From the NCBI GenBank assembly GCA_946405485.1, contig CAMJHJ010000045.1, positions 1 to 13,073 of the forward strand: a stretch of 13,073 bases of DNA, read 5' to 3'. Shown one piece after another: positions 175-13,073 of the stretch. The notes beneath the pieces were generated by a model. That model did no database searches. It saw only the letters and a list, made by a program, of their open reading frames with translations, and was not told the DNA's origin. Position 1 is the first letter of the stretch; the number at the start of each line of letters is the position of its first letter. The DNA comes from an uncultured Bacteroidales bacterium (GTDB taxonomy: Bacteria; Bacteroidota; Bacteroidia; Bacteroidales; UBA932). A program made the position numbers and the translations under genes.

Positions 175-1563
175 CTATTCAATCTCAAATTTCAAAGCGA
201 AAGACTCTTGCGCGAGTCCCTTGGGCAGGGTGACGGACACCCTGCCGTCCCTGACCTTGCAGGACAGCCGGTGGCCGTCACCGACCAATTGCACCTTTCC
301 GGCCGGGACATTGCCGGTCCATTCGACGGTCGCGGGAAGCGATTCACCGTCGGCGAGGGCGTAGATCGCATAGAGCGTCCTGCCATCCTTGGAGGCTGTG
401 AACCAGAGATTTCCGTCGTGGTAGACGGGCGTCGTGCGGGTTGCATAGATCGCCTCCCCGTACTTTCGCAGCCACTCGCCGATCCCGTGGAGACGGCTCT
501 GCGCCAGATCGTCGATCGTGCCGTAGGGCGTCGGAGCGATACCCAGGATCAGGTTGCCGCCCTTGGCGACCACCTCCACCAGCTCGGCGACCACCCTGCG
601 TACGCTCTTGTAGTTGGGGTTGAAGCGCCAGCTGAAATCCATCAGCGGGTCGCAGGTTTCCCAGGGGATGTTGCGCTGCTCCGGAGGGACCGTACACTCG
701 GGAGTCTGGTAGTTTTCGTTGTCATCCCGGGATACACGGTCCACGCAGATCATCCCGGGGTTGCGCTGGCGCGCAGCGACAAGCACCTCGTCCAGCCCCA
801 CTTCCTTACCGGAAATCCAGCCGCCGTCCAGCCAGATCAGATCCATCCGGCCATAATCGCGGGTAAGTTCCGTCAGCTGGTTCTTCGTAAAATCCACGTA
901 ATTCTGCCACCAGTCCGGGTGATTCTCTTTCTTGTAATTGATGCCCCGGCGCGGCGTGGCCAAGATCGGGTTCCAGAACCACTTGCAATGCCAGTCGGGC
1001 TTGGAGAAATAGGCGCCGACCCAGAAATCCTTGGCCCGGAAAGCATCGAAGACTTCCTTGGCCACATTGCTGCGCGGGTGGTCTCCGAAAGGCCCGTTGG
1101 TGATCTTATAGTCTGTATACTGCGTATCGAACATGCAGAAACCGTCGTGGTGCTTGGTCGTGAAGACCATATATTTCATCCCGGCGTCCTTCATCACGTC
1201 GGCCCAAGCGTCCGGATCGAACTGCCGGGGGTTGAAGAAACGGCTCAGGCCCCAGTACCACTGCTTGAACTCATCGTAGCTCAAGCCCGTCTCGCGACGG
1301 TAGTTGTACTCCCATTCCTCATCCTCGGAGCAGAGGTTCCAGGACTCCATGATCCCGGCCACCGAATAGATGCCCCAGTGGAAGAGCACCCCGAACTTGA
1401 GGTCCTGCCAGGCGTCCAGTTTCTGCAGCACCAGCGGATCCGTAGGCTCAATATAGCCGTTCACCGGCGAATAATGATGGGCGTAACCCGTCTCCTGCGC
1501 CGTCACGCAAAGCGGGCCGGCGCATATCAAAAGAGTCAGGAGAAGCAAAGGAAGTTTTTTCAT
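175..1563 (-). CDS. GH29 alpha-L-fucosidase, secreted
   Basis: The 462-residue product is a retaining alpha-L-fucosidase of glycoside hydrolase family 29, which releases terminal L-fucose from glycans. Residues 1-22 form a signal peptide (basic start, leucine-rich core, VTAQ cleavage region), so it acts in the periplasm or beyond. Family hallmarks are HWG at 62-64, the KHHDGF motif at 137-142, LIWLDGGW at 243-249 with Asp246 as the expected catalytic nucleophile, PWETC at 300-304, and GGNLILGIAPTPYGTID at 335-351, which matches the family GGNLLLN.gPTpdG block. The acid/base residue is variable in GH29; Glu289 and Glu295 are candidates but cannot be assigned. The last about 90 residues fit the small C-terminal beta-sandwich. 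Length is normal and the gene looks intact. It follows a SusC/SusD pair, but with a terminator and its own predicted promoter between, so it may be co-regulated rather than strictly co-transcribed. Linkage specificity cannot be read from the sequence. Confidence 0.93.
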   Translation of the reverse strand: MKKLPLLLLTLLICAGPLCVTAQETGYAHHYSPVNGYIEPTDPLVLQKLDAWQDLKFGVLFHWGIYSVAGIMESWNLCSEDEEWEYNYRRETGLSYDEFKQWYWGLSRFFNPRQFDPDAWADVMKDAGMKYMVFTTKHHDGFCMFDTQYTDYKITNGPFGDHPRSNVAKEVFDAFRAKDFWVGAYFSKPDWHCKWFWNPILATPRRGINYKKENHPDWWQNYVDFTKNQLTELTRDYGRMDLIWLDGGWISGKEVGLDEVLVAARQRNPGMICVDRVSRDDNENYQTPECTVPPEQRNIPWETCDPLMDFSWRFNPNYKSVRRVVAELVEVVAKGGNLILGIAPTPYGTIDDLAQSRLHGIGEWLRKYGEAIYATRTTPVYHDGNLWFTASKDGRTLYAIYALADGESLPATVEWTGNVPAGKVQLVGDGHRLSCKVRDGRVSVTLPKGLAQESFALKFEIE

Positions 1564-1585
1564 AAGAATCAGATGTGCATTTCAA

Positions 1586-1616
1586 CAAATATAATAAACA
1601 TTGTCGAAATAAGAAA
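1586..1616 (-). promoter_or_regulatory. Predicted Bacteroidota sigma-type promoter for the fucosidase gene
   Basis: On the minus strand the sequence TATATTTG (1593-1586) matches the Bacteroidota -7 consensus TAnnTTTG exactly. Nineteen bases upstream is TTTC (1616-1613), a three-of-four match to the -33 element TTTG. Transcription would start near 1580, leaving a leader of under 20 bases before ATG 1563. The -33 element begins directly after the hairpin of the preceding terminator. Prediction by pattern only. Confidence 0.5.
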
Positions 1617-1642
1617 TCGGGCGGCCCAGATGGGTCGCCCGA
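1617..1642 (-). terminator. Hairpin terminator after the SusD-like gene
   Basis: The arms 1618-1627 and 1632-1641 form a 10-bp GC-rich stem with one G-U type pair and a 4-base loop. It is extended by one A-T pair at 1617/1642. On the minus strand it lies 24 bases after the SusD-like stop codon and is followed by the T-rich ATTTCTTATTT. This fits a factor-independent terminator, possibly leaky because the T run is interrupted. Confidence 0.7.
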
Positions 1643-1665
1643 AATCAATCTAGAGCAGATAACTG

Positions 1666-3300
1666 TTATTTGAGGGATTTCGCCCAGAAAAGAGTGAAAT
1701 TCTCAGAGTCATCTCCAACATTCGCTTTGGCAACCGTATAGTTCGCCTTGTTGTTGGCAGCTTCCGTGTTCGGATACTTCACGCGGTTGACGATGTTCGC
1801 AATCTTTACACCGTTGCCCGTGTCGGTCGGATAGTCAAGCTTCGGGTAACCGGTACGGCGGATGTCCGTCCAGGCCTGAGTCGGCTGAGTGATACCGAAA
1901 TGTGCCCACTTCTGCGTCATGATTGCATCCATCTTGTCAGTGTAGGCATTCCAAATCTTCTGAGCGAAGGCAAGGGCATCAGCTTCAGACGGGATGTCCT
2001 CGGCCTTGAACTTCTTGAAATAACGCTCTCCGGTGGACGTGGCCTTTTCCTGACTTCCGTTCACGTTCTCGTCAAATAACTGCTCGATGGAAGCGGCGAC
2101 ACCCTTCTTGAAAGCGTTCTCGGCATTGCCGGAGGCATAGCCCTTCTGGTAAGCCTCGGCAAGGAGGAACCAGGTCTCGGCAGCTGAAATGATAGGGCTG
2201 ACGAAAAGGTTGTTGTAAGTGAAGGTAGCGTAGTTCAGGCGTGCATAGTAACGCTGCTCATATTCTTCAGCGGCATTATGCTCGTTCTGTTCAGCGGTTG
2301 TCTCACCGACATGTTCGCCGAAATACTCACCCGCTTCGTTCGGGAAGTAAACAACAGGGAGACGAGGATCGTTTTCGCCGGTGATCTGGAAGGCGTCAAT
2401 CACCTTCTGGGAAGCCGTCGCGTTGATGTCCTTCCAGCTGTCACGGAAGTTCTCCCAATATGCGAAGTTTTCAAAGTCAGCATGTACCTTGATCGATTCC
2501 GCCCAATTGGTAGGAAGGGTGCGGCCAGCTGCCTTGGCAACGGCAGCCTTACCCTCAGAGACGAGAGCTCCCTGGGCAGCAACGTGAATGCCGAGACGGA
2601 GAAGGAGGGCATTGGCATAAGCCTGCCACATATTGAGGTCTCCGCCACAGATGTAATCCTGCTTCTCAAGCGTGATTTTAGTAGCATTGCGGACACTGGA
2701 AGCAAGGCTGCCAATCTCGGTATAAAGGGCATCCAACTTGGTCAGCATCATCTTGTACAAATCGACATCACTGTCATATTTAGGGAAGGACGTGGCAAGT
2801 TCGCCTGTAATGGCAAGATAACATGCTTCCTCAAACGGGACCGGGCCGAAGATATCCACAAGCTGGGAAAGATGATCATAAAGGTAAACCTCGGTCAGCG
2901 CTAAGTAGAGACGGTCTTCCGCCTTCTGCTCCTCCGTTTCGGATTCGTACTGCCGCTGCATGATGCGGTAGTTACGGAGGATATCATAGAAACTGTTCCA
3001 ACGATCGTTAATATAACCATCATTGATATAATACATGGTACCGCTATTGACAGAGAAGCCGATAGTCTGGGCAAGTTTTCCGAAATAGTTATCCCAAGTA
3101 TACATCCTCCAGTAGGCATTGAAGGTGTAACCGTTGCCCAGCATGAAGGTACCCGTCATGAGTTTTTCGCAAGATACCGCAGTCGTCTTGGACGGATCAT
3201 TGTACTTGTCCTTAAAAATCTGGTCGCTGCAAGAAGCAAGGAGAGACAGAACGACGGTGGTCAGGATCAGAGTATAGATTTTTTTCATTGTCTTATCCAT
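1666..3300 (-). CDS. SusD-like outer-membrane glycan-binding lipoprotein (SusD/RagB family)
   Basis: This 544-residue lipoprotein is the surface glycan-binding partner that caps its SusC-like porin. The N-terminus carries a lipoprotein signal with lipobox LLASC, so Cys24 would be lipidated, with a following SDQ. Family-like stretches include NDPSKTT near 34-40, WNSFYDILRNYRIM at 101-114, DIFGPVPFEEA at 149-159, and a C-terminal block beginning QKWAHFGITQPTQAWTDIRR at 463 followed by an R.KYPNTEA segment. These point to the SusD branch described as starch-binding associating with outer membrane (SusD-like_2 type); the exact subfamily is an inference. ATG 3300 lies 20 bases after the SusC stop and is used here. 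ATG 3288 (MKKIYT) gives an equally good signal peptide and may be the true start. The gene is probably co-transcribed with susC and is followed by a hairpin terminator. The glycan bound is unknown; the fucosidase next door suggests a fucosylated one. Confidence 0.92.
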   Translation of the reverse strand: MDKTMKKIYTLILTTVVLSLLASCSDQIFKDKYNDPSKTTAVSCEKLMTGTFMLGNGYTFNAYWRMYTWDNYFGKLAQTIGFSVNSGTMYYINDGYINDRWNSFYDILRNYRIMQRQYESETEEQKAEDRLYLALTEVYLYDHLSQLVDIFGPVPFEEACYLAITGELATSFPKYDSDVDLYKMMLTKLDALYTEIGSLASSVRNATKITLEKQDYICGGDLNMWQAYANALLLRLGIHVAAQGALVSEGKAAVAKAAGRTLPTNWAESIKVHADFENFAYWENFRDSWKDINATASQKVIDAFQITGENDPRLPVVYFPNEAGEYFGEHVGETTAEQNEHNAAEEYEQRYYARLNYATFTYNNLFVSPIISAAETWFLLAEAYQKGYASGNAENAFKKGVAASIEQLFDENVNGSQEKATSTGERYFKKFKAEDIPSEADALAFAQKIWNAYTDKMDAIMTQKWAHFGITQPTQAWTDIRRTGYPKLDYPTDTGNGVKIANIVNRVKYPNTEAANNKANYTVAKANVGDDSENFTLFWAKSLK

Positions 3301-3320
3301 TTAAAGTTAGTCGGACACGA

Positions 3321-6300
3321 TTAGAAGTTCGCACGGAGCGTGAAACCGAAGGTCCGGGAAGAAGAGGTGGAACCACCGATCTGAACAGCATCCATCCAGT
3401 TTGTACTATCCATCGCCTCCGCATCGAAAATGGGCAGGTTCTTGTAGACAAAGAACGGATTGCGGGCGAAGACGGAGAGACGGAGCGCGTTGCATTTGAA
3501 CTTGCGGGTGAAGTTCTCCGGCAGGGTATAGGAGAGGGAGAGCTCACGGCACTTCAGATAAGTGTTCCTGAAGATGGAGTGGCTGTAATAGTTCGCACCG
3601 CCAACACCCCAGGAATAGGCTTCCGTGAGCATGTCATCGGTGCTGATGATCTTCGTATTGGGCTTTCCGTCCTCGGTCACGCCTTCGAGAATTTGCCCGT
3701 CGTGATGGATATATTCGCCATTAGGGCCTTTGTCCAAACCCTCCGCAGCGATATAATTACCGTTTGCGTCGGCATAGTACGCGAGACCACCGTGAGCTTC
3801 ATCACGGAAAGGCATGGAGTCTTCAATGGCACCGACACCCATCATGTACTGATAAGGCTGATTCCAGACATCACCGCCAATCTGGAAGTTGAAGAGAGCA
3901 TCCAGCGTCCATCTCTTGTAAGAAAGCGTCGTAGCAAAACCACCGATAAGGTCAGGGATAGCATTACCCACCTTGACCGGCTCGTCAGTAATCTTATAAT
4001 AGCCGTTGGCATTGACGATCTTGTTGCCGTTGGCATCCTCCAGAGGAGCATAGGCATAGATATCACCCATCTTTTGTCCGGGGATGGAATAGAGATAGAC
4101 TGCGCCGTTATCCCAGCGTTTGTTCTCGAGACGATCAAGGCCTTCCATCAGCTTGACCACCTTGTTGGTGTTCCAGGCGAGATTGCCGGAGATATCCAAG
4201 CGCCAGTCACCGCTCTCGATCGGGGTGCCATAAAGGGCCAACTCGATACCCTGGTTCTCCAATTCACCGACATTGACGAGCATGGATTTACCGCCGGCAC
4301 TGCGAGGTGTGGTTGCCTCGAGTATCTGATCGACAATTCGCTTATGATAGTAAGAGAGATCAAACCCGAGACGATTGCGGAAGAACTTGTTCTCGATACC
4401 GAATTCCCACTCGTGGGTCATCTCAGGACGGATATTGTCATTGCCAAGATCACTACCAAGCTGTTGATAAACATACTTATTGGAAGCTGTAGACTGGGTG
4501 TAGGAAATCGGAGCCTTGTAAAGCTCAGGAGCAAGACCAACGATACCATAAGAAACACGGAACTTTCCGTAGTCCACCCATGCAGGAAGGTCAAAGAGCT
4601 CAGAATAAATGATGGAAGCGTTGACGGAAGGATACCAGAAGGACTGACCATTCAACGTGGAGGTCTTTTCATTACGGATCGTGCCCTCCAGATAAGCCCA
4701 ATCTTGCCAGGAGAAGGAAGCCGTTGCGAAGACGGCCTGCTTGAGCATGTCACTGACGCTTTCACTGCCACGAGCATCCTCATTCGAGAACTTGAGATTG
4801 AAATGGTTAAGGTCAGTCAATCCATTCTTGGCCTGAGCGGTCGTCGCAAGGTATTTTTCCTCACGGACAGAATAACCGACAATGGCATTGAAGCCCAAAT
4901 CCTCGGTGATTTGAGTGTCCCAGTTCAGCATGACGTCACCATAAAGGGTCTGATAGTCACGCTTGGTGATGGCATAGTGACCGGTCGGCTTACCGGTAAT
5001 GGCAGGAGAGGTCTTTGCATACTCCTTGAGTTCGATGTTCTGGACGGACCAGTCAGTCGCGAGATTCGACTTGAGGGTGAGACCCTTGACGATCTCCCAG
5101 GAAGGAGTTACACTGGCGATGAGACGCTGGTTATTCTCATACTGCTCGCGGCCGAGGATATTCCAGGCGTACTCATCAAGGAAGCCGCCCAGGTTGGAAG
5201 GATTATAGTACCACCCCTCGGAAGGATTCTCATGGTTGGCGTCGGTCCAAGGCTTATTGTAGAAACCAGCGGAAGTCCGAACGTGTTCACGGTAATATAC
5301 GATATCGTCAAAAGCACCGAACATACCGGAGTAATTCGCGACCATACGCGCGATACGATAGGGACGGTTCTTGACATTCTGGTTCATGTAGTTGACCGAA
5401 TAGCCGAGTTTGACCCCTTTGGCAATATCCTGGCTTCCGCTGACCTGGAAGTTGTGCTTTCCAAGATGGGAGTTATACTGATTAGGGATATTGTCCATGA
5501 AAGTATAGGAGAAACGCGTGTTACCGTGTTCGTTACCGGTGGTGATAGCAAGATTATACTGCTGAAGGATACCGGTCCTGAAAAGATCACTCCAAGGATC
5601 ATCGGTATAAGCCGTGAACTTGCGATAACCGACAGGGGTATAAACCTCACGACCATCATACTTGGGGCCAAAGTAATAATAAGCGTTAAAGACAGAGGGG
5701 ACATCAATGGTCTTTCCGTTCTTATCGGTTCCACCCATACGACGGATATCAAAGCCATAATACTCCGAGGTAGGGTCATCGACTAAAGCGGCCTGACTCC
5801 AATACTGCCAGGGATAACCAGGGCCGAAGGTCGTCTGATACTTGGGCATGTAGGCAACAGCGTCAGCCTGAATGCTACCACTGAAATCCACATGGACACC
5901 ACTGTTCTTCTTGCCTTGCTTCATCGTGATAAGGACCACACCGTTAGCACCCTCGGAACCATACAGGGACGTCGCAGACGCACCCTTCAGGATGGTGAGG
6001 TTCTCGATATCTTCCACATTGATGTCGGTCAGACCGTTGGACTGCATACGCTGCACGGCCCAGTAATCACCGAGGTTTGCTTCACCGTTACGGATCGGGA
6101 CACCGTCCACGATCACAAGCGGCTGGCTCGTACCGGTAATGGAGGAAAGGCCTCGGACATTGATTGAAATAGCACCTGTCGCACCACCCGGAGCCGTACT
6201 GATACGGACACCGGAAGCTTTACCGTAGAGGGCGGAGCCGAGGGACGGAGAAGCAGTGGCAACCAGCTTGCTGGCATCGACAGAACTCACGGCGTAACCG

Positions 6301-6656
6301 ACCTTCTTCTCATCCTTACGGATACCGAGAGCCGTTACAACCGTACCCTCCAGCAATTCAGAGTCCTCATCAAGGACAACGTTGATGGGGCCACCGTTCC
6401 AAGTCACGACCTGGGAGGTGTAGCCGATGCAGGAGAATTCGATCTTATCTCCTACCTGGGCATTGGAAAGAGAGTAGGAACCGTCAAAATCGACAACAGT
6501 GCCGTTGTGGGTTCCCTGTACGAAAGCAGATGCGCCGATAACGGGTTGACCAGCCGCATCTTTCACTGTTCCTGTGACGGTAGTCTGGGCAAAGGCAGAG
6601 AAGCCGAAGCCAAGCAGGGCGACCGTCATTGCAATTCTGATAAACAGATTCTTCAT
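3321..6656 (-). CDS. SusC-like TonB-dependent outer-membrane glycan transporter (SusC/RagA family)
   Basis: The 1111-residue product is a TonB-dependent beta-barrel that imports oligosaccharides across the outer membrane. A signal peptide occupies residues 1-23 (cleavage around AFA-QTT). Next comes a carboxypeptidase-regulatory-like N-terminal domain (about 25-97, TVTGTVKDAAGQPVIGAS), the extension characteristic of SusC proteins. A plug domain follows (about 103-250), with VIVDGVPIRNGE at 181-192 and LYGSEGANGVVLITMKQGK at 231-249, the latter being the SusC plug signature. The remainder is a long barrel ending in TFGFTLRANF, whose terminal Phe is the usual outer-membrane insertion signal. 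The length is typical of the family and no frameshift is visible. It is the first gene of the pair with the SusD-like gene 20 bases downstream. A consensus Bacteroidota promoter lies about 80 bases upstream of its ATG. Base composition is visibly more AT-rich than the purine genes. The substrate is not identifiable. Confidence 0.96.
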   Translation of the reverse strand: MKNLFIRIAMTVALLGFGFSAFAQTTVTGTVKDAAGQPVIGASAFVQGTHNGTVVDFDGSYSLSNAQVGDKIEFSCIGYTSQVVTWNGGPINVVLDEDSELLEGTVVTALGIRKDEKKVGYAVSSVDASKLVATASPSLGSALYGKASGVRISTAPGGATGAISINVRGLSSITGTSQPLVIVDGVPIRNGEANLGDYWAVQRMQSNGLTDINVEDIENLTILKGASATSLYGSEGANGVVLITMKQGKKNSGVHVDFSGSIQADAVAYMPKYQTTFGPGYPWQYWSQAALVDDPTSEYYGFDIRRMGGTDKNGKTIDVPSVFNAYYYFGPKYDGREVYTPVGYRKFTAYTDDPWSDLFRTGILQQYNLAITTGNEHGNTRFSYTFMDNIPNQYNSHLGKHNFQVSGSQDIAKGVKLGYSVNYMNQNVKNRPYRIARMVANYSGMFGAFDDIVYYREHVRTSAGFYNKPWTDANHENPSEGWYYNPSNLGGFLDEYAWNILGREQYENNQRLIASVTPSWEIVKGLTLKSNLATDWSVQNIELKEYAKTSPAITGKPTGHYAITKRDYQTLYGDVMLNWDTQITEDLGFNAIVGYSVREEKYLATTAQAKNGLTDLNHFNLKFSNEDARGSESVSDMLKQAVFATASFSWQDWAYLEGTIRNEKTSTLNGQSFWYPSVNASIIYSELFDLPAWVDYGKFRVSYGIVGLAPELYKAPISYTQSTASNKYVYQQLGSDLGNDNIRPEMTHEWEFGIENKFFRNRLGFDLSYYHKRIVDQILEATTPRSAGGKSMLVNVGELENQGIELALYGTPIESGDWRLDISGNLAWNTNKVVKLMEGLDRLENKRWDNGAVYLYSIPGQKMGDIYAYAPLEDANGNKIVNANGYYKITDEPVKVGNAIPDLIGGFATTLSYKRWTLDALFNFQIGGDVWNQPYQYMMGVGAIEDSMPFRDEAHGGLAYYADANGNYIAAEGLDKGPNGEYIHHDGQILEGVTEDGKPNTKIISTDDMLTEAYSWGVGGANYYSHSIFRNTYLKCRELSLSYTLPENFTRKFKCNALRLSVFARNPFFVYKNLPIFDAEAMDSTNWMDAVQIGGSTSSSRTFGFTLRANF

Positions 6657-10498: not shown

Positions 10499-11530
10499 TC
10501 ACTTCATTATTATATTAACGCCCGGCACATCGGTGACCTTTCCGATCACGGAGGCCTTTTCACCGCAAGCAGTGAGGATATCGATCGCCTGCTGCGCTTC
10601 GCTTTCATCAAGGACCGCGATCATGCCGATGCCCATGTTGAAGATATTGAACATCTCGCGATGAGGCACGCCGCCCCATTTTTCCAGCATCCGGAAGACC
10701 GGGAGGATCTCCCAGCTGCCTTCACGGATTTCCAGGCCCTGGCCGGGTTGCAGGACGCGCGGGATATTCTCATCGAAACCGCCGCCCGTGATATGACAGA
10801 TCCCGTGTACGTCGCAGGCACGGATCACCTCCAGCATCTGCCTCACATAGATCTTGGTAGGGGTCAGCAGGACCTCACCCAGCGCCCGTCCGCCGAACTC
10901 GGGAATCATGTCCGTGTAATTCAGGCCCGCATCCGCGACGATCTTGCGCACAAGGCTGAAACCGTTGGAATGCACGCCCGTGGACGCAACGCCGACCAGC
11001 ACATCTCCGACCTTGACCTTGCTGCCGTCGATAAGTTTCGATTTTTCGACGACGCCGGTGGTATAGCCTGCGATGTCGTATTCGCCGTCGGCATACATGC
11101 CCGGCATCTCAGCCGTCTCACCGCCTACCAGGGCGCAACCCGCCTGCCGGCAGCCTTCCGCCACACCGGCGACGATCGCCTCGACCTTCTCCGGCACATT
11201 GTGCCCCAGGGCCACATAGTCCAGGAAAAAAAGCGGTTCGGCGCCCTGCGCCAGCACGTCGTTGACGCACATCGCGACGGCGTCGATGCCGATCGTATCG
11301 TGCTTGTCCATTGCAAAGGCGATCTTGAGCTTCGTGCCCACTCCGTCGGTCCCGCTGACCAGGATAGGTTCCTTGATTCCCAGGGAGGCGAGGTCGAACA
11401 TGCCTCCGAAGGAACCGATATTACCCATCGAGCCCGGACGGGCCGTGGAAGCGACATGCTGCTTGATGCGGCGGACCACTTCGTATCCGGCTTCCAGGTT
11501 CACGCCGGCGTTTTCATAAGTCTTAGCCAT
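10499..11530 (-). CDS. purM: Phosphoribosylformylglycinamidine cyclo-ligase (AIR synthetase) PurM
   Basis: PurM uses ATP to cyclise FGAM to aminoimidazole ribonucleotide. The 343-residue length is typical. Hallmarks of the PurM/PurL ATP-binding fold are seen: [11 protein letters not shown] at 59-69, [14 protein letters not shown] at 133-146, [11 protein letters not shown] at 183-193, [13 protein letters not shown] at 246-258, and [12 protein letters not shown] at 292-303. ATG 11530 lies 5 bases after the purF stop. The stop codon (TGA, 10501-10499) lies 2 bases before the purH ATG and overlaps a possible GTG start, so close translational linkage is likely. The enzyme for the preceding step (PurL) and the GAR transformylase (PurN or PurT) are not in the window and must be encoded elsewhere. 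Nothing abnormal is seen. Confidence 0.97.
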
Positions 11531-11535
11531 GGTAT

Positions 11536-12894
11536 TCAGTCATTGTTGATTTCATCATCATAGAGGATAGTCGGATACTCGCCCGTGAAGCACGCCTGAC
11601 AGGGATCCGCACAGCCGAAACAGGACGCGCGTGTGGATTCGGGACTCAGGTAACCGAGAGAGTCGGCGCCGATGGCCTCGCGGGCCTGCTCCAGGGTCCG
11701 GTGGGAGCACAGGAGCTCTTCGGGAGTGGAAGTATCCACGCCGTAATGACAAGGGAAACGCATCATCGGACTGGCGATGCGAACATGCACCTCCGTGGCG
11801 CCGGCCTCGCGCAGCATACGTACGATCTTGAGCGATGTGGTGCCGCGCACGATACTGTCATCCACCAGGACCACACGCTTTCCGCGCACGACATCCTCCA
11901 CGGGCGAAAGCTTCATCTTCACACCCAACTCGCGTATCTCCTGGATCGGCTCGATGAAGGTACGGCCCACGTATTTATGCTTGATCAGGCCCATCTCGTA
12001 CGGGATGCCGCTCGCCTGGCTGTAACCCATTGCCGCAGACAGGCTGGACTCCGGCACACCGACCACGATGTCCGCCTCGACGGGGCACTCATGGTACAGG
12101 CGACGGCCCGCTTCCTCGCGGTAGGCGTGGACGTTACAGCCGTCGATATTACTGTCGGGACGCGCATAATAAATGTATTCCATCGCGCACATCCGATGCT
12201 TCTGGAACTGGGAATAGCGGTTGGAGCGCAGTCCGTGGGCATCCAGCGTCACCACTTCGCCGGGCTCGACGTCCCGCAGGAACTTCGCTCCCATGATGCC
12301 GAAGGCGCAGGACTCGCTGCTCACGACATAGCCGTCGCCCAGGGTGCCGATCACCAGGGGCTTGATGCCGTACTTGTCCCGGCAGGCGTAGATGCGGTTG
12401 CGGGTCAAGACCAGGATGGAGAATCCGCCCTCTATCATATTGAGCGCCTTGAGGATGTTGACGATACGCTCCTCACCGTTGTGCTTCTTGATCAGATGGG
12501 CGAAAATCTCACTGTCCGTCGCGGTCTGGAAGATGATGCCCCGCTTCTCAAGCAGGGACTCCAACTGCTTGGCATTGATAAAGTTGCCATCGCAGGCAAC
12601 GGCGAAATCCCCTTTCGTCTGATAAAAGAGGATGGGATCGACGTTGTCCAGGCCGCCCTTGCTGACATTGGCATACTTGACGCTGCCGATGCCGACGGAG
12701 CCTTCCAAACCGAGCACGTTACCGTCCGTGAAGACTTCGCTGAGCAGCCCCTGTCCGCGGTGGCGGCAAGGCTTGCCCGCATCATCGAAGGTGACGATGC
12801 CGGCGCCTTCCTGGCCCCGGTGCTGGATGTTATGCAGTCCGTAATAGAGATAGGTCGAGGCGTTCGCGACGCCGAAAACTCCGAGTACACCCAT
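11536..12894 (-). CDS. purF: Amidophosphoribosyltransferase PurF, Fe-S type, lacking the glutaminase nucleophile Cys1
   Basis: PurF starts purine synthesis, converting PRPP to phosphoribosylamine with nitrogen from glutamine or ammonia. The 452-residue protein has the N-terminal Ntn glutaminase-like domain (about 1-230) and the phosphoribosyltransferase domain. The PRPP loop VVLVDDSIVRGTTS (341-354) is complete. Cysteines 236, 382, 432 and 435 match the [4Fe-4S] ligands of the B. subtilis-type enzyme; Cys425 and Cys428 are additional. The N-terminus MGVLGVFGV...QHRGQEGAGI aligns gap-free with the classical CGIVGIAGV...QHRGQ, but Met1 occupies the Cys1 position and no Cys lies nearby. GHVRYPTAG is replaced by GSVKYANVS (Arg73 to Lys), and the oxyanion-hole HNGN by CDGN (Asn to Asp at 102); Asp127 is kept. 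ATG 12894 is 2 bases after the purC stop; no conventional in-frame start lies between it and an upstream TGA (12936-12934). The glutaminase is therefore probably inactive and the enzyme possibly ammonia-dependent. A paralogue elsewhere could supply the normal activity. Confidence 0.92.
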   Translation of the reverse strand: MGVLGVFGVANASTYLYYGLHNIQHRGQEGAGIVTFDDAGKPCRHRGQGLLSEVFTDGNVLGLEGSVGIGSVKYANVSKGGLDNVDPILFYQTKGDFAVACDGNFINAKQLESLLEKRGIIFQTATDSEIFAHLIKKHNGEERIVNILKALNMIEGGFSILVLTRNRIYACRDKYGIKPLVIGTLGDGYVVSSESCAFGIMGAKFLRDVEPGEVVTLDAHGLRSNRYSQFQKHRMCAMEYIYYARPDSNIDGCNVHAYREEAGRRLYHECPVEADIVVGVPESSLSAAMGYSQASGIPYEMGLIKHKYVGRTFIEPIQEIRELGVKMKLSPVEDVVRGKRVVLVDDSIVRGTTSLKIVRMLREAGATEVHVRIASPMMRFPCHYGVDTSTPEELLCSHRTLEQAREAIGADSLGYLSPESTRASCFGCADPCQACFTGEYPTILYDDEINND

Positions 12895-12896
12895 GG

Positions 12897-13073
12897 TCAG
12901 TTCTCTTTCAATACAGTTGTAAGCCGTTCATATACATTGCGGTAGGAGGCCACCACGTCGCTGAGGTCCAGGCGGAAGCGGTCCTTGTCCAGGCGCTCGC
13001 CAGTCTCTTCGTCCCAAAGGCGGGCGGTATCCGGACTGACCTCGTCGGAGAGGATGATCTCCCCGTTGTCCGT
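12897..13073 (-). CDS. purC: SAICAR synthetase PurC, C-terminal 58 residues (partial at window edge)
   Basis: The frame enters from the right edge and ends at TGA 12899-12897. The visible 58 residues contain [14 protein letters not shown] and LDKDRFR, the conserved C-terminal part of phosphoribosylaminoimidazole-succinocarboxamide synthase, which joins aspartate to CAIR using ATP. It ends with an amphipathic helix-like tail ([18 protein letters not shown]), as usual for PurC. The stop lies 2 bases before the purF ATG, making it the upstream visible gene of the operon. The catalytic N-terminal part, the gene start and the operon promoter are outside the window. Confidence 0.93.

Follow-up and report, generated by a model that had tools for sequence, protein, structure and literature searches.

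Can a PurF that begins with methionine exactly where its catalytic cysteine should stand still serve purine synthesis, and from which source of nitrogen? The question is raised by a 13,073-nucleotide stretch of DNA from an uncultured Bacteroidales bacterium (contig CAMJHJ010000045.1, assembly GCA_946405485.1), analysed here as a whole and called the window, which carries such a purF gene. PurF catalyses the textbook first step of purine synthesis and is a model glutamine amidotransferase with an internal ammonia channel. The original prediction, made from the letters of the window, held that this enzyme had lost its glutaminase and either uses free ammonia, takes ammonia from a separate partner or has a regulatory role beside a normal PurF paralogue. 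Our results show that the methionine-initiated (Met1) type arose once and that the nucleophile was lost from the PurF already resident in the purine operon; judged from sequence, the Met1 protein is probably an ammonia-dependent phosphoribosylamine synthase. What appears to be new is the natural, clade-wide loss of Cys1 in an operon-resident bacterial PurF; ammonia use by Cys1-less PurF mutants is already known. Searches of the open-licence literature turned up no earlier description of a bacterial PurF clade that naturally lacks Cys1, which is no proof of absence.

Results

The window gene is a PurF by profile (NCBIfam purF, TIGR01134, 455 bits against a cut-off of 350, full length), and it aligns to Bacillus subtilis PurF with 517 bits, beginning at residue 2 of both proteins. 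The original prediction covered only the 5' (glutaminase) part of the gene, the whole of which, with the elements of interest, is as follows (row counts refer to the Met1 alignment described below).

11536-12894, minus strand: purF, Met1 type, 452 amino acids (codons); glutaminase domain (residues 1-230) inactive-looking, phosphoribosyltransferase domain intact
12892-12894, minus strand: ATG start at the position of the nucleophile Cys1, from the alignment and relatives
12667-12684, minus strand: SVKYAN, residues 71-76, against the usual HVRYxT; His, Arg73 and Thr76 substituted
12583-12594, minus strand: CDGN, residues 101-104, against the usual HNGN; Asn replaced by Asp
12187-12189, minus strand: iron-sulphur (Fe-S) Cys236, kept; Cys in 75/75 Met1 rows
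11836-11865, minus strand: phosphoribosyl pyrophosphate (PRPP) loop VDDSIVRGTT, residues 344-353, intact
11749-11751, minus strand: Fe-S Cys382, kept; Cys in 75/75 Met1 rows
11599-11601, minus strand: Fe-S Cys432, kept; Cys in 75/75 Met1 rows
11590-11592, minus strand: Fe-S Cys435, kept; Cys in 75/75 Met1 rows

We take Cys236, Cys382, Cys432 and Cys435 to be the Fe-S ligands. That Met1 falls exactly on the Cys1 position is borne out by the B. subtilis alignment and by those cysteine-bearing PurF copies (type a, see below) that were read, in which the distance from Cys to QHRGQ is exactly 23 residues, the window having Met at that place. Nor is this a peculiarity of one assembly. Met1 is present in 79 of 80 related loci (L001-L080, the best 80 of 408 loci from the genome collection, mostly from metagenome-assembled genomes (MAGs) of rumen and gut Bacteroidales), the exception being L079 from Alistipes, which has a propeptide and Cys. 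All 120 listed best protein clusters (the best 120 of 7998 matches) start with Met and have no Cys at residue 1 or 2. The nearest relative, L001 from goat abomasum, is 98% identical. A read error, called unlikely in the original prediction, is ruled out by these relatives.

The window ATG is the first ATG, GTG or TTG after the in-frame stop, as originally stated. The test was extended to 87 Met1 loci, made up of the window, 76 of the 79 Met1 loci in L001-L080 and 10 of L216-L235, loci with missed motif patterns being left out; an upstream in-frame stop was found in 87/87, and another ATG, GTG or TTG in between in 0/87. The accompanying statement that no Cys lies nearby has to be amended, because an in-frame TGT (Cys) codon occurs seven codons upstream, but this codon has no start before it, does not adjoin GVLG and cannot be the nucleophile. 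Residue 2 is Gly in 74, Ser in 11 and Ala in 2 of the 87 loci. Since an initiator Met before Gly, Ser or Ala is normally trimmed, the mature Met1-type chain would normally begin at residue 2.

Loss of the nucleophile is accompanied by changes elsewhere in the glutamine site. Arg73, Asn101/Gly102 and Asp127 (E. coli numbering), which we take to be the glutamine-site residues of PurF, are Lys, Asp, Gly and Asp in the window, so that two of four are kept; the Asn of HNGN is presumably the oxyanion-hole residue. It had been claimed that only the Gly and Asp127 remain: Gly103 and Asp127 are indeed kept, but His25-Arg26-Gly27 is retained as well. These statements about the pocket rest on alignment and not on model coordinates, the AlphaFold2 model of the window PurF being of moderate quality (predicted local distance difference test score 78, predicted template modelling score 0.66).

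We compared 75 Met1 rows with 48 Cys1 rows, 16 of which were Cys1 copies from genomes that also carry a Met1 gene (L072 was dropped). Five residues, His70, Arg72, Thr75, His101 and Asn102 in B. subtilis numbering, are invariant in all 48 Cys1 rows and substituted in most or all Met1 rows. Residue 102, Asn in 48/48 Cys1 rows, is acidic in every Met1 row (Glu 47/75, Asp 28/75). Thr75 (Thr76 in E. coli) has become Asn in 74/75, Arg72 (Arg73 in E. coli) is Lys in 65/75 and Arg in 4/75, and His101 is kept in 0/75. Asp127, retained in the window, is kept in 67/75. Of the Met1/Lys73/Asp102 pattern, whose clade-wide occurrence had been raised, only Met1 is general; Lys73 reaches no more than 65 rows, and Glu is commoner than Asp at residue 102.

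The transferase half presents another picture. The PRPP-loop core DDSIV, Lys305 and the four Fe-S cysteines are invariant in 75/75 Met1 rows, in agreement with the earlier view that this half is under selection. Of 155 positions invariant in Cys1 PurF, 68 fall in the N-domain, and 46 of these are kept at a level of at least 93% in Met1; the C-domain, with no more than 87 such positions, keeps 80 at that level. Median ratios of nonsynonymous to synonymous substitution rates (dN/dS), which are rough counting estimates from pairs with moderate dS, were 0.187 for the N-domain and 0.066 for the C-domain in the main Met1 branch, to which the window belongs (ratio 2.78, 1133 pairs), as compared with 0.208 and 0.188 in the Cys1 set (ratio 1.11, 73 pairs). 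From the domain-wise conservation and dN/dS it follows that constraint on the glutaminase half has been relaxed, whereas strong selection still acts on the transferase half. The predicted loss of glutaminase is accordingly well supported by sequence, and would be clade-wide and of a single origin.

Phylogeny and synteny agree on how this state arose. The Met1 rows, 76 in number, form a single clade with support 100 in a tree built from 123 PurF rows. When a sister branch (the MSVL type, see below) was added and the Met1 rows were thinned, the 39 Met1 rows again formed one clade, with a support of 93 in the Shimodaira-Hasegawa-like approximate likelihood ratio test, slightly below the 95 mark. 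A tree of 58 chosen rows built from the transferase domain only, in order to exclude columns of the trait itself, separated 25 Met1 from 33 Cys1 rows with support 99/93. Met1 arose once. The nearest Cys1 relatives include L079, whose purF has the same neighbours (purL, purM, purH, purD, folD). As L079 shares these neighbours and the Met1 rows form a single clade, the loss of the nucleophile took place in the PurF native to the operon. The purM gene directly follows Met1 purF in 73/75 testable loci, purL lies upstream in 71/73 testable loci, and purC stands between purL and purF in 76/80 main-branch loci.

The sister branch was found in a survey of 41 genomes, drawn as the genus of the L079 genome. 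Eight genomes (L216-L223) contain an MSVL-type Met1 PurF in which Arg73 has become Leu and NGN is kept (AHNGN or ANNGN). In 7/8 loci the gene sits between purL and purM, followed by purH, purD and folD; L218 is too short. A search including a query for the long type c PurF (see below) detected a second PurF in 0/8 of these genomes, compared with 46/78 in the main branch (Fisher p 0.0014); rpoB was present in 6/8 and a GlmS-like match in 6/8. The Cys-less PurF is thus probably the only PurF of the sister branch. Six further genomes (L224-L229) have a PurF with Cys1, Arg73 replaced by Leu (GHVLYTAAE) and an altered NGN, a separate decay of the glutamine site with the nucleophile retained. Of the 14 genomes with MSVL or Cys1-Leu73 PurF, 12 gave an rpoB match. 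Two candidates for additional PurFs were set aside: the second purF of G306, one of the six Cys1-Leu73 genomes, identical to the first over the last 440 residues, is probably an assembly duplicate, and the weak match in G301 is by eye another kind of N-terminal nucleophile (Ntn) protein. We also noted a Cys1 PurF group (L192, L195-L197, L199-L201) that retains Cys1 and Arg73 but has an altered glutamine site, with GHVRYSNAG and ANNGQ where T and NGN are usual.

The search for a second, Cys1-bearing PurF suggested in the original prediction gave a different result in the main branch. Of the 78 carrier genomes, those behind L001-L080, 46 contain a Cys1-type PurF: in 29 it is a type-a copy whose match starts at profile position 1, in 17 a long type c copy. 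The two types occur together in 0/78, and neither was detected in 32/78. Sixteen of the 29 type-a copies were read, all HEEC, and four of the 17 type c copies, HECG; unread copies were classed by score and profile range. We do not take the 32 genomes as evidence of absence, a reading that was withdrawn in view of the gaps in the MAGs (51/78 with any rpoB match, 53/78 with pyrG above cut-off); in one of the 32, G166, a 32-residue piece of PurF lies at the edge of a contig. Unlike the Met1 gene, the Cys1-type paralogue sits outside the purine operon and has multiple sources, the type-a carrier copies alone occupying three separate places in the tree. In 13 of 15 loci viewed it adjoins glutamine synthetase III, pyrG or carAB, or gltD, pyrG, amtB, asnB and glmS, and in the other two purA and purB. 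This neighbourhood suggests a pair of ammonia-using and glutamine-using isozymes in the window's branch.

Many carriers had appeared to lack CTP synthase, a notion dropped on account of MAG incompleteness except for a remnant in L151. There, within a long contig of G002 and near the Cys1 purF (L151:5433-5534), about 34 codons of the pyrG 3' end and 83 of dapL are left, flanked by full-length carAB, glnA and purA, an apparent decay of CTP synthase.

The other purine genes of the window surround purF in the order purC-purF-purM-purH-purD-folD, with no intervening gene.

12897-13073, minus strand: purC 3' end, directly upstream of purF; TIGR00081, 35.8 bits, profile 195-274, a fragment under the whole-protein cut-off
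10499-11530, minus strand: purM; TIGR00878, 448 bits
8943-10502, minus strand: purH; TIGR00355, 692 bits
7673-8929, minus strand: purD; TIGR00877, 489.5 bits
6818-7666, minus strand: folD, end of the conserved block; two FolD models above cut-offs, 362.9 and 359.1 bits

The purC reading frame is complete in the 98% identical locus L001. An alpha-L-fucosidase-like gene and a SusC/SusD-like pair adjoin the purine operon (window 175-6656). An Rfam search of six sources gave no match. One MAG, G138, holds two near-identical Met1 purF contigs (L021 and L024), possibly two strains binned together.

Discussion

The reading that we favor is that the Met1 PurF makes phosphoribosylamine from ammonia. 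One ancestor lost the propeptide and Cys1, translation now beginning at the former Cys1 codon, as alignment, synteny and trees show. The glutamine pocket changed, and strong selection was maintained on the phosphoribosyltransferase; cytosolic ammonia would enter via the former glutamine site and the channel and attack PRPP. Of the three options named in the original prediction, free ammonia is the best supported, and the strongest argument for it is that the Met1 PurF is apparently the sole PurF in the sister branch. Many genomes of the window's branch have added a PurF of the glutamine-using Cys1 type, usually in a nitrogen-assimilation or glutamine-enzyme cluster; to go by these gene neighbourhoods, the ammonia enzyme may serve when ammonia is plentiful and the glutamine enzyme when it is scarce. 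We reject the idea that these cells have lost the use of glutamine in general. The PurL cysteine motif GICNGFQ is kept in 93/100 operon loci, some with Cys1 PurF (of the other seven, two gave different matches, perhaps other frames, and five none), GlmS of L147 starts MCGI and the L147 AsnB frame contains MCGI; with PurL keeping its motif, the loss of the glutamine site is specific to PurF.

Published work offers precedents for such an enzyme. E. coli PurF in which Cys1 was replaced lost glutamine use and kept ammonia use (Mei and Zalkin 1989, told in PMC3261824). Yeast PurF uses ambient ammonia, a yeast PurF mutant needs ammonium to grow, and the glutamine site has been proposed as the point at which external ammonia enters PurF (PMC12017579). 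Rumen bacteria are described as preferring ammonium among nitrogen sources, and Prevotella ruminicola strongly induces amtB, asnB, glnN and gltBD when ammonium runs short; PurF goes unmentioned in that report (PMC5552732). Nothing pertinent was found in the literature on Cryptobacteroides and ammonia.

However, the ammonia reading should be held with some caution, since several observations weigh against it. A Cys1-type PurF is present in 46/78 main-branch genomes, possibly in more as rpoB was found in only 51/78, and with such a paralogue so widespread the Met1 copy need not be a working phosphoribosylamine synthase there. Two of the eight MSVL genomes lack an rpoB match. Moreover, purC was found in 0/8 MSVL loci, where purL directly precedes purF (purC was not sought elsewhere in those genomes); this makes a complete purine pathway in that branch uncertain and lowers our confidence. 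The six Cys1-Leu73 genomes show no second kind of PurF, and so a degraded glutamine site need not accompany loss of Cys1. A smaller rise of the N-domain over the C-domain dN/dS is also seen in the Cys1-Leu73 genes (2.12, 11 pairs), the MSVL genes (1.57, 4 pairs) and the carriers' Cys1 copies (1.38, 22 pairs). Finally, the pocket has not simply drifted, with residue 102 acidic in 75/75 and Thr76 replaced by Asn in 74/75; such conserved changes hint at a new role rather than mere loss.

Among other explanations, the Met1 protein could be the transferase of a two-part system that draws its ammonia from the Cys1 paralogue or from some other glutaminase, either joined with it in a mixed oligomer or close by in the cell. 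The paralogues in 46/78 carriers would provide a partner, and PurF molecules in yeast condensates have been proposed to pass ammonia to one another (PMC12017579). We nevertheless consider this unlikely: paralogues drawn from three type-a places and the long type c include no evident co-evolved partner, 8/8 sister-branch genomes have no second PurF, and the window's genes from purC to folD run consecutively with no other gene between. The same paralogues, whose glutamine site is intact (48/48 Cys1 rows, 16 of them carrier copies), might instead make the Met1 protein a regulatory pseudoenzyme. The original prediction was right that a Cys1-type paralogue can exist; a purely regulatory role is very improbable. 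The Met1 gene holds the purine operon place, its DDSIV, Lys305 and Fe-S cysteines are invariant in 75/75, and its C-domain dN/dS lies below that of Cys1 PurF, the carriers' Cys1 copies showing the highest values of the sets (0.434 and 0.323 for the N- and C-domains, 22 pairs). Because the paralogue has several origins and lies apart from the purine operon, a regulatory protein beside a real PurF fits poorly.

The acidic residue 102 could also be the key to a pocket remade for another amine donor or as an ammonium-binding site. We give this little credence as an explanation of its own, for the sister branch keeps NGN (AHNGN or ANNGN) yet lacks Cys1, and the NGN change was therefore not needed for glutaminase loss. 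An assembly or start-site error hiding a normal Cys1 is refuted by the relatives and has practically no standing, with 79/80 loci and the 120 listed best proteins agreeing on Met1, and with an upstream in-frame stop and no other start codon in 87/87. A bolder form of the ammonia reading, which we regard as doubtful on present sequences, is that of an obligately ammonia-fed PurF with an ammonium-capturing pocket (acidic 102 at the former oxyanion hole), the glutamine-using PurFs having been acquired later from several sources as low-ammonia isozymes in nitrogen-assimilation clusters. If this were true then, together with the distant type b PurFs described below, purine synthesis from ammonia would be common in Bacteroidales.

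Compared with B. subtilis PurF (1gph, 1ao0; TIGR01134), the Met1 type is without propeptide and without Cys1. Beta-lactam and carbapenam synthetases have lost the nucleophile and no longer need ammonia, unlike the chemistry of PurF. Those enzymes (1jgt, 1q15) are likewise Ntn amidotransferase shells without glutaminase function. The E. coli Cys1 mutants, which use ammonia and not glutamine, also lack the nucleophile, but they are laboratory products, whereas the Met1 state is natural, clade-wide and joined by further pocket changes (PMC3261824). A natural PurF homologue with Ser for Cys, Mlab_0150 of Methanocorpusculum labreanum, has a second PurF (Mlab_0202) in its genome; it is a recent duplicate in one species, suspected by the authors who described it not to be a PurF, in contrast to the operon PurF of a broad clade (PMC3261824). 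The NAD synthetase family likewise unites ammonia-using and glutamine-using members, though its glutaminase is a separate nitrilase-like domain, whereas in Met1 PurF a built-in Ntn domain is disabled (PMC3376133).

A clade with intermediates (Arg73 lost with Cys1 kept; Cys1 lost) and with added glutamine-type PurFs offers a test of how channelled enzymes lose glutamine use, and of whether the gut ammonia level drives that loss. Some Met1 proteins (P0035, P0045, P0049, P0062, P0119) are named amidophosphoribosyltransferase in their sources, and metabolic models of these rumen bacteria may therefore assign the wrong nitrogen source to Met1 PurF.

More distant PurF homologues, type b, that start with MGG or MSG are widespread in other Bacteroidales. 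In the 23 loci read (L141-L143 and L236-L255) Cys1 is missing in 23/23 and DDSIVRGTQ kept in 23/23. They are remote from Met1 PurF (L142 scores 191 bits to TIGR01134, below the cut-off of 350), no neighbouring purine gene was recognised by eye in L141-L143, and none of the 78 Met1 carriers yielded a type b copy. The window PurF is not of this type, having MGVLGVFG and QHRGQ against LGTxxxG (or MGTxxxG) in type b. In a wider Bacteroidales survey, type b was counted by hand, by score and length, in 63/119 genomes. Among 35 genomes chosen for type b without a listed type a or c, 24 had no strong type c match either and no other PurF was found in them; a distant purM match, below the family cut-off, was present in 35/35.
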